Assembly: GCF_000236685.1 (NCBI RefSeq)
Contig: NC_016633.1
Coordinates: 930,001-994,000 of the forward strand
Direction of reading: 5' to 3'
Length of the DNA stretch: 64,000 nt
From: Sphaerochaeta pleomorpha str. Grapes
Lineage (GTDB): Bacteria > Spirochaetota > Spirochaetia > Sphaerochaetales > Sphaerochaetaceae
Each line of letters opens with the position of its first letter. The first letter of the stretch is position 1. The position numbers and the translations under genes were made by a program. Under the pieces are notes generated by a model. That model ran no database searches. It was not told the DNA's origin and saw only the letters and a program-made list of their open reading frames with translations. Shown one piece after another: positions 37,957 through 39,503 of this stretch.

Positions 37957-38634
37957 CTAATGGAACAATAATCCATACAGGGCGACAACACTCAAAAGGC
38001 TAAACAAAGTCCCTACCAAAAAATATTCGCAAAACTCTGGTGATTCGGAAATCTGCCTGCTCCTGGCAAACGCCTTGGCTGCAATAACCCAACCTATCGC
38101 CCCTAATTGCCCCATGAGAAATAAGGAGGCAAGGAGCAGTCGTTCCAAATACCCAATGATCTTCCCTGCACCACTTTTACCCGAAGGCAGGTTTCCAGGT
38201 TTCAGATATCCTAATACCTGCAGAAACAAAACCGAGACTGGCTTGACGGCCGCAAGCAACAGGACAAACGCACGCACCTGCATTGCATAGGTATCAACAA
38301 AAGCGATGGAAGCAGGAAAAACGGCCACGACAAAAAGCAAACAAAGCAGATGCAACAACTGGTCAAAGACAAAAGCAACTCCATTGCTCCCTAAGGTCCT
38401 CTCAACCACAAACTTCAGGGCATCTAGCAAAACATGGGAAACAACCAAGACAAAAAAGGCGACGATATTACCGAAAGCAAACACCAACAAAAAGGGCAAA
38501 GCATAGATCAGGCCGTGTACTATGACCATCGAAAAGGCTGTGCGCTTTTTCTCTGCCATTGTATCGGACTGGAAATAGAAATCCCCGAGCAGATGAAGGC
38601 CTAGGTAGAAAACCAGGGTTGTGTTCATAATCAT
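37957..38634 (-). CDS. DUF3307 membrane protein
   Basis: This 225-residue protein with about 6-7 predicted helices opens with HLLGDFYFQSDTMAEKK, the DUF3307 signature, with a second conserved SHVLLDALK. ATG 38632-38634 overlaps the SatD gene stop by 4 nt with GAGG 8 nt upstream. DUF3307 genes are regularly paired with SatD genes; no biochemical role is established that I can name. Confidence 0.85.
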   Translation of the reverse strand: MIMNTTLVFYLGLHLLGDFYFQSDTMAEKKRTAFSMVIVHGLIYALPFLLVFAFGNIVAFFVLVVSHVLLDALKFVVERTLGSNGVAFVFDQLLHLLCLLFVVAVFPASIAFVDTYAMQVRAFVLLLAAVKPVSVLFLQVLGYLKPGNLPSGKSGAGKIIGYLERLLLASLFLMGQLGAIGWVIAAKAFARSRQISESPEFCEYFLVGTLFSLLSVVALYGLLFH

Positions 38635-39305
38635 TGGCTTGCCTCAATTTCCCGCAACAAAAGGGTTTGCGTCCGGCTTTTGGCATCAAGATAAGCAATG
38701 AGTCCCATTGCCTTGATCATAGTGAACATTTGTTGCGGGGAGATTTTCATTTCACTGGCAAGTTGCACCTGCGGTACTTTTTCAAACCCATGCTGCAGAA
38801 TCTGGAAAGTTGCAAGTTCCAACTGCCTTTTTTTCCATCCGTGTACAAGCTGGTCGCCAAGTAAAAAGGATTGGTTTACCAACTCTTGGGTAAGGTCCCC
38901 CCGCTTTGCAGGAAAAATAATTTTAGCAGTCAGTGTCTGGTAGTAGTTTTCATCATACAGGGAATCCAAGGCTTCCCGTGCATTCCAGAAGGCAGGGCCA
39001 TCGCAAAGGATGCTCGACTTAGGATCGATTGCGGTTGTGATCTCGCCCAATCCCAGACCAAGACGGACGGTACAATAGGCAGAGAGCGAAAACCGTAAGA
39101 CATCGCATATCTGAAGAAGCGGGGCGTGTGAACCGAAAATTCCCTGGAAGGAATCTCCTGAATTTACCATGAGGGAGGAAACAAGAGAATCCTTGAAACG
39201 CTTGTTGACAAAATCCATCGTCTCAATGAAATGTGTCTGGAATTTTGCCCTGTCTGGAATGTCTCTCGATTTGACGACATCACCAAGTATTACAAAGTAC
39301 TGCAT
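38631..39305 (-). CDS. SatD-family protein with C-terminal winged-helix-like region
   Basis: The 224-residue protein matches the SatD family: YFVILGDVVKSRDIPDR at the N-terminus, NSGDSFQGIF near 48, and GPAFWNAREALD near 102. The last 55 residues (VPQVQLASEMKISPQQMF) read like a MarR or winged-helix DNA-binding module, so autoregulation is possible. There is no Shine-Dalgarno before ATG 39303-39305; instead a good promoter places transcription start at the A of the ATG, predicting a leaderless message. It forms a two-gene unit with the DUF3307 gene. Confidence 0.83.
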   Translation of the reverse strand: MQYFVILGDVVKSRDIPDRAKFQTHFIETMDFVNKRFKDSLVSSLMVNSGDSFQGIFGSHAPLLQICDVLRFSLSAYCTVRLGLGLGEITTAIDPKSSILCDGPAFWNAREALDSLYDENYYQTLTAKIIFPAKRGDLTQELVNQSFLLGDQLVHGWKKRQLELATFQILQHGFEKVPQVQLASEMKISPQQMFTMIKAMGLIAYLDAKSRTQTLLLREIEASQ

Positions 39306-39311
39306 GCAATA

Positions 39312-39340
39312 AAGATACCACAGGTATTTGGTTTTATCAA
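39312..39340 (-). promoter_or_regulatory. Promoter of satD-DUF3307, predicted leaderless
   Basis: TTGATA (39335-39340) and TATCTT (39312-39317) on the minus strand are 17 bp apart. The ATG begins 7 nt after the -10 box, so transcription would start at or next to the first codon. Confidence 0.65.
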
Positions 39341-39410
39341 TTATTTAGCATTGATTTTTCTTTAATAAACTATTTTTAGTTTATTTTTCAATTATCAATA
39401 GAGTATTGAT
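39336..39410. promoter_or_regulatory. Three inverted repeats in the satD/tetR intergenic region
   Basis: ATCAAT...ATTGAT (39336-39355, 8-bp spacer) overlaps the satD -35 box. AATAAACTA/TAGTTTATT (39364-39385, 9-bp arms, 4-bp spacer) is perfect. ATCAATA/TATTGAT (39394-39410, 3-bp spacer) is perfect and shares its half-site with the first. They look like operators for one or two regulators; the satD product or the neighbouring TetR are candidates. Confidence 0.5.
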
Positions 39411-39442
39411 GATATACTTATTCCATTTTTTTTACCGATTTC

Positions 39443-39472
39443 TTGACAAAGCGTACCACCTACATCTATATT
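39443..39472 (+). promoter_or_regulatory. Promoter of the tetR-P-type ATPase operon
   Basis: TTGACA (39443-39448) and TATATT (39467-39472) are separated by 18 bp. The predicted start lies inside the following operator. Confidence 0.75.
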
Positions 39473-39485
39473 AACCGAACGGTTA
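39472..39485. promoter_or_regulatory. TetR operator
   Basis: TAACCG-AA-CGGTTA is an inverted repeat placed directly at the predicted transcription start. AACCGAACGGTTAG-type sequences are common TetR-family operators, so autoregulation is likely. Confidence 0.75.
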
Positions 39486-39503
39486 GTTAATAAAGGATTA
39501 CGT

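Follow-up and report, generated by a model that had tools for sequence, protein, structure and literature searches.

Repeated palindromes 28 or 29 bp apart suggest that SatD switches off its own satD-DUF3307 unit

Results

Evenly spaced palindromes precede satD across the family

We report that satD genes from several phyla are preceded by palindromes repeated every 28 or 29 bp, an arrangement which suggests that SatD switches its own unit off, this unit consisting of satD and the DUF3307 gene that follows it. In the reading that we favour, and hold with considerable though not full confidence, SatD is a one-component autorepressor that carries a nucleotide-type sensor domain and controls DUF3307, a probable membrane protein, through the array. 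The array, its spacing, the link of spacing to SatD subtype, the fold, the gene linkage and the leaderless signature of the spirochaete genes are the computed parts of this explanation; what we infer is that the array is bound by SatD and that SatD acts as a repressor, forms dimers and answers to a nucleotide.

The locus analysed lies in a stretch of 64,000 nucleotides of the Sphaerochaeta pleomorpha genome (hereafter the window), and its features are collected in Table 1. A 4-nt ATGA overlap joins the end of satD to the start of the DUF3307 gene, and no NCBIfam model was found for either protein. Downstream by ~70 nt, on the same strand, lies a NYN-domain gene (PF01936, 37107-37886) with a weak C-terminal winged-helix match; it is no part of the satD-DUF3307 unit at the other loci, where no conserved third gene was found. 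On the other side satD shares its intergenic region with a divergent tetR gene, after which comes a gene for a P-type cation ATPase. The tetR promoter (39443-39503) is a strong TTGACA-18-TATATT; at the predicted start lies a palindrome, TTAACCGAACGGTTAGTTAA, probably tetR's own autoregulatory operator.

Table 1. Features of the satD-DUF3307 locus in the window
Feature	Position	Strand	Details and basis
satD (PF16264)	38631..39305	-	224 aa; Pfam 131.6 bits vs cut-off 29, residues 3-216
SatD domains	residues ~1-130 (N) and ~137-223 (C)		predicted: N cyclase/GGDEF-like, C helical HTH; AlphaFold2, Foldseek, VIA-align, HTH-family matches among relatives
DUF3307 gene (PF11750)	37957..38634	-	225 aa; 68.7 bits vs cut-off 23, residues 8-110
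-10 hexamer TATCTT	39312..39317	-	TG before (extended -10); 6 nt to ATG
-35 hexamer TTGATA	39335..39340	-	promoter scan; overlaps right half of proximal palindrome
ATG start codon, predicted transcription start	39303..39305	-	promoter geometry and conservation in relatives
Operator-like palindrome 1 (proximal), ATCAATGCTAAATAATTGAT	39336..39355	-	overlaps -35 box
Operator-like palindrome 2, ATAAACTAAAAATAGTTTAT	39365..39384	-	29 bp from site 1
Operator-like palindrome 3, ATCATCAATACTCTATTGAT	39394..39413	-	29 bp from site 2; weaker left half

The initial annotation had described two ATCAAT-type inverted repeats and a third, of AATAAACTA type, at the satD promoter. All three repeats are real, but the AATAAACTA type is not a type of its own: they belong to one class of 20-bp palindrome (7-6-7, the arms being 7 bp long and the centre 6 bp) and follow one another at exactly 29 bp. 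At 39394-39410, palindrome 3 can also be read in another frame, as the perfect palindrome ATCAATA-GAG-TATTGAT (7-3-7). When the window region alone was compared with its own shuffles, the palindrome pairs were not significant (p 0.08) because of its AT-richness, and the significance of the array comes instead from its spacing across relatives.

For the family as a whole the test assumed no sequence and took, from each satD upstream region, the distance that separates two similar palindromes. The best spacing was 28 bp (31 regions) or 29 bp (20) in 51 of the 74 dereplicated regions, drawn from several phyla, and one of these two spacings was found in 49/65 under stricter dereplication. Scores of at least 22 at 28/29 bp were reached by 46%/34% of the satD regions, against 0.4%/0.1% of dinucleotide-shuffled sequences and 0%/1.4% of the regions in front of other ORFs at the same loci (366 regions). 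About one quarter of the satD loci have no clear array at the sensitivity used, perhaps in part through wrong starts or very AT-rich DNA. Elsewhere the repeat occurs in four copies (L085, GCATCAA...ATGATGC) or in three (L091, L041 and L093). The palindromes overlap -35 or -10 elements, the streptococcal repeats being of TGTCYGTTATAATRGACA type with the -10 inside. Two congeneric genomes (L016, L017) encode longer SatDs of 292 aa with an insert in the C-domain, and their repeats stand ~30 bp apart. In a haloarchaeal plasmid, GTTCGCCATTACCGGCGAAC and GTTCGCCCCTACAGCCGAAC lie 29 bp apart upstream of satD, and inspection by eye adds a similar pair closer to the gene; no clear array was found at the plasmid copy from Arthrobacter.

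A check proposed in the initial annotation was to compare the ATCAATA/TATTGAT half-site among relatives. The paired 29-bp pattern recurs within the genus, in the genomes that carry this type of satD; between clades the half-sites differ. Among 26 congeneric genomes scanned for paired 29-bp sites, these were found at satD in six; in a seventh, G024, whose assembly is fragmented and yielded no satD, they stand in the same promoter sequence. Three other one-mismatch hits in the genus look like chance, and a reversed control pattern matched once.

SatD is the likely binder of the array

Not only do the operator half-sites vary from clade to clade, but their spacing follows the subtype of the SatD C-domain. 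Where W157 and A183 are separated by a short stretch, the spacing is 29 bp in 13/15 cases, and where by a long one, 28 bp in 29/34, the exceptions including the window clade (Fisher p 2.6e-6, a figure uncorrected for ancestry). In addition, operator similarity tracks the similarity of the helix-turn-helix (HTH) with N-domain similarity held constant, the effect being small (partial Mantel 0.14, p 0.001). Since operator sequence follows phylogeny, as does spacing subtype, these correlations with SatD are non-independent; they are what would be expected if SatD itself occupied the array with adjacent dimers in contact. The genes upstream of satD differ (ffh in S. agalactiae, topA in S. halichoeri, Sir2 in S. 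anginosus, tetR in the window and, judged from sequence, superoxide dismutase in Anaerolineaceae) and only DUF3307 is conserved as a neighbour, which leaves the arrays with no other regulator in common. Taken together, the clade-specific half-sites and the spacing tied to the C-domain make SatD itself the likely binder. That a host regulator such as the divergent TetR binds the array instead, SatD being only an enzyme, is suggested by the intergenic region which the two genes share in the window, but we consider it very improbable: TetR is not conserved beside satD and has a palindrome of its own near its own promoter, while the array persists across phyla as the neighbours change and its spacing follows SatD subtype.

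SatD models as a cyclase-like domain fused to a helix-turn-helix

The AlphaFold2 model of SatD (pLDDT 95.8) places a class III cyclase/GGDEF-like fold in the N-domain and an HTH in the C-domain, in agreement with the initial annotation, which had seen an enzymatic or nucleotide-binding look in the former and a winged-helix-like module in the latter. Foldseek ranks class III cyclases first for the N-domain (best E 5.5e-4, top matches ~1e-3; 1ybt at rmsd 3.2), and VIA-align gives Z scores of 10-11 for GTP cyclohydrolase III, adenylyl and guanylyl cyclases, GGDEF domains and Cas10 palms; as GGDEF and Cas10 score like the cyclases, the assignment holds at superfamily level only. By sequence, a profile search put the Rv1900c cyclase first, weakly (E 0.065), with GD51 aligned to the GD of Rv1900c. 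D9, G50-D51 and D102-G103 are invariant in 57 SatD sequences and R110 is nearly so; D9 and D51 occupy the two metal-binding Asp positions of class III nucleotidyl cyclases. No clear counterparts of the base-specifying Lys/Asp, the adenylyl-cyclase Lys included, or of the Asn in the transition-state Asn-Arg pair were found by sequence. SatD thus shares with class III cyclases, GGDEF domains and Cas10 palms the fold and the two metal-Asp positions, and differs from them in that identity is 9-20%, the N-domain is fused directly to an HTH and cyclase activity is putative. Because it keeps the two metal-binding Asp and the Arg of nucleotide cyclases, the N-domain is probably a nucleotide sensor or a former maker of nucleotides; nucleotide sensing by SatD rests on the fold and these few residues.

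The same features could be read to mean that SatD is an active nucleotidyl cyclase making a second messenger for DUF3307, whose membrane-type character would suit such a partnership, with DNA binding secondary. We find this unlikely, given that the base-specifying residues of known cyclases are unrecognisable in the SatD sequence and that, of the extra features at satD loci, none is as conserved as the operator array.

As for the C-domain, the predicted helices 179-185 and 190-200 agree with weak but repeated matches to Cro, Fis, sigma-region-4 and other HTH families in many relatives; in the window SatD itself, no HTH-family match above threshold was found by profile. A parallel in plan is offered by the PucR/CdaR-type regulators, among them MabR (Rv2242), which has a GGDEF domain and an all-alpha effector domain (PMC11617747): both have a GGDEF/cyclase-like domain followed by a C-terminal HTH. 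Foldseek matched the C-terminal structure of MabR (9f80) to SatD over 238 columns, with poor superposition (rmsd 14.7), and GGDEF_2 is weak in 3/57 SatD relatives (0.0098). Neither PF17853 nor the PucR HTH was found by profile in the window SatD, which therefore falls outside the profile definition of PucR/CdaR and, unlike those regulators, has no extra N-terminal domain and does have a 28/29-bp operator array.

DUF3307 is the usual partner of a patchily distributed gene

The DUF3307 protein is probably a multi-helix membrane protein, judging from its all-helical model (pLDDT 95.2), and has conserved charged residues; among solved PDB structures no fold match to the model was found. Its gene lies downstream of satD and adjacent to it in 87/94 loci. 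Two loci (L050, L086) carry satD with no neighbouring DUF3307, and in G016 the two genes are ~2.2 kb apart. SatD relatives occur in 17/60 related genomes, and the spread is patchy, with satD in 2/296 spirochaete genomes. Among 26 congeneric genomes SatD and DUF3307 co-occur in exactly the same 14, and DUF3307 proteins that stand alone within the phylum are short (103 and 142 aa) or weak/broken. Short DUF3307 proteins unaccompanied by SatD are also found outside the phylum (controls Synechococcus and Bacteroides), and the phage relatives in PHROGs are short and listed as membrane protein; SatD was not found in phage records with a streptococcal query.

Streptococcal satD units sit at different insertion sites, the order in S. 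agalactiae being ylxM-ffh-satD-DUF3307, and plasmid copies of the unit were found in one archaeon and one actinobacterium. The haloarchaeal plasmid copy (L105, NZ_CP019068.1 138819-140236) shares the 4-nt gene overlap as well as the 29-bp palindromes, which points to transfer from one domain of life to another.

The spirochaete satD message appears to be leaderless

The initial annotation had placed +1 at the satD ATG and noted that there is no ribosome site, in a segment where most genes have strong ones. The latter statement holds approximately (of 49 genes called crudely in the window, 41 have at least 4 Shine-Dalgarno (SD) matches, their starts having been chosen with a bias towards SD), and the former gains weight from relatives. 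Upstream of satD, TTGATA and TATCTT are separated by a 17-nt spacer, and exactly 6 nt lie between TATCTT and the A of the ATG (39305), so that +1 is predicted at or next to that A. No SD is present in the 18 nt before the ATG. The start codon itself is fixed, because satD's upstream open frame has no other in-frame ATG, GTG or TTG and because the first conserved strand of the model starts at residue 2. Taken alone, however, a simple promoter scan does no better than chance (3 matches against 5.2 expected in shuffles), and we therefore turned to relatives, where conservation makes the leaderless case.

All 12 distinct spirochaete satDs of the 210-250 aa types have TANNNT exactly 6 nt before the start and no SD; these genes share ancestry, which makes any binomial figure for them nominal, three come from other families of the class, one starts with GTG, and one (L009) needs the second of two nearby ATGs to be counted. 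The same signature was found in 0/77 satDs of other phyla, 58 of which have an SD match of at least 4, and TANNNT stands 6 nt before 2/112 control ATGs from the same loci and occurs at 3.9% at other offsets. The longer spirochaete SatDs (292 aa; L016, L017) have a start that is SD-led instead. A contig titled Clostridia bacterium (L025, SAAM01000249.1) encodes a SatD ~45% identical to that of the window behind the same leaderless promoter and groups with the spirochaete clade; it is probably a misbinned spirochaete contig.

The spirochaete satD message thus appears to start directly at its start codon. The rival possibility, that satD is transcribed from further upstream and translated by way of no recognisable SD, draws on the many promoter-like matches that AT-rich DNA yields; we rate it as quite improbable, since the position of TANNNT stays fixed in all these spirochaete genes even as operators and spacers diverge. 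TANNNT ~12 bp upstream of the start is known to mark bacterial leaderless genes, and in Spirochaetes 3.9% of genes are leaderless, with the signal in 6/18 genomes (PMC3160421). satD shares this TA-like signal at ~12 bp and the missing SD with those genes, and differs from them in that its predicted leaderless state is conserved for one gene through several families of one class.

Discussion

Autoregulation by SatD is our best inference from the arrays, and the pieces could fit together as follows: (i) a SatD dimer would form through the cyclase/GGDEF-like N-domain and offer its two C-terminal helix-turn-helices to one palindrome; (ii) two to four such dimers would sit side by side, with palindrome centres 28 or 29 bp apart, the exact spacing being set by SatD subtype; (iii) the bound row would block the satD-DUF3307 promoter, from which, in spirochaetes, a leaderless satD message would be made; (iv) the N-domain, which probably senses, or once made, a nucleotide, would release repression according to its ligand state; and (v) the output would be the DUF3307 membrane protein, translated by coupling to satD. 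On the array, SatD may also activate rather than repress.

An extension of this autorepressor explanation, rather than an exclusion of it, is that satD-DUF3307 forms an addiction-like (toxin-antitoxin-like) unit, in which DUF3307 would be harmful if unchecked and SatD would protect by repression, perhaps also by direct neutralisation. We regard this as a tentative possibility, somewhat less probable than its negation. To be absent from some strains yet impossible to lose from the others is a typical trait of antitoxins and of genes that repress a harmful neighbour. A Tn-seq meta-analysis of S. pyogenes found satD, present in 178/249 genomes and so missing from ~29% of strains, to be the one accessory gene whose essentiality ranks in the top quarter (PMC11323703). 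Being the sole accessory gene in that class, it leaves the S. pyogenes DUF3307 outside the class, if the latter is adjacent and accessory; by analogy with the other streptococci analysed, the essentiality of satD may be linked to an adjacent DUF3307. The order of regulator first and effector second in overlapping genes, the autoregulation-like array, the patchy distribution, the different streptococcal insertion sites, the plasmid copies and the strict co-occurrence within the genus all suit an addiction-like unit. Against it, satD essentiality in S. pyogenes could have another cause; L050 and L086 lack a neighbouring DUF3307; PADLOC returned one chance-level match only (E 0.18), the unit corresponding to none of the known defence models; and the occurrence of short DUF3307 proteins with no SatD, including in phages, means that DUF3307 is not toxic in general. 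With type II toxin-antitoxin operons the pair shares small overlapping regulator and effector genes, autoregulation-like operators, patchy spread and, in the case of S. pyogenes satD, a first gene that is essential though accessory; it differs in that the effector is of multi-helix membrane type, with putative toxicity, and the regulator has a cyclase-like sensor domain. A fuller version, in which rows of cyclase-fold sensor dimers on 28/29-bp arrays hold down a harmful membrane protein in bacteria and archaea until a nucleotide signal (of infection or stress, for example) releases it, is more doubtful still.

satD owes its name to the sat (acid tolerance) operon of Streptococcus mutans, where the gene order is ylxM, ffh, satC, D, E, and which the S. 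agalactiae locus resembles. By profile the window gene belongs to this same family (PF16264), which is known only as linked to acid tolerance. The S. mutans sat cluster is also named in PMC12077213. The initial annotation knew of no assigned function for the SatD/DUF3307 pair, and this holds insofar as the pair is little studied; given the S. mutans naming and the S. pyogenes essentiality (PMC11323703), it is not wholly unstudied. In the open-access literature we found nothing that describes SatD as binding DNA or mentions a satD operator array, and no paper that names both SatD and DUF3307; DUF3307 alone is named in one.

Under the autorepressor explanation, a widespread family that had no known function would gain a concrete and cheaply testable role, that of a transcription factor with a nucleotide-cyclase-like sensor, acting through an unusually regular operator array whose conservation takes in streptococci, spirochaetes and a haloarchaeon. 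In spirochaetes, satD represents a conserved natural gene predicted to be leaderless. In S. pyogenes, repression of this kind may explain why satD is essential even though a sizeable part of the strains do without it, and this essentiality makes an antitoxin-like role worth testing.
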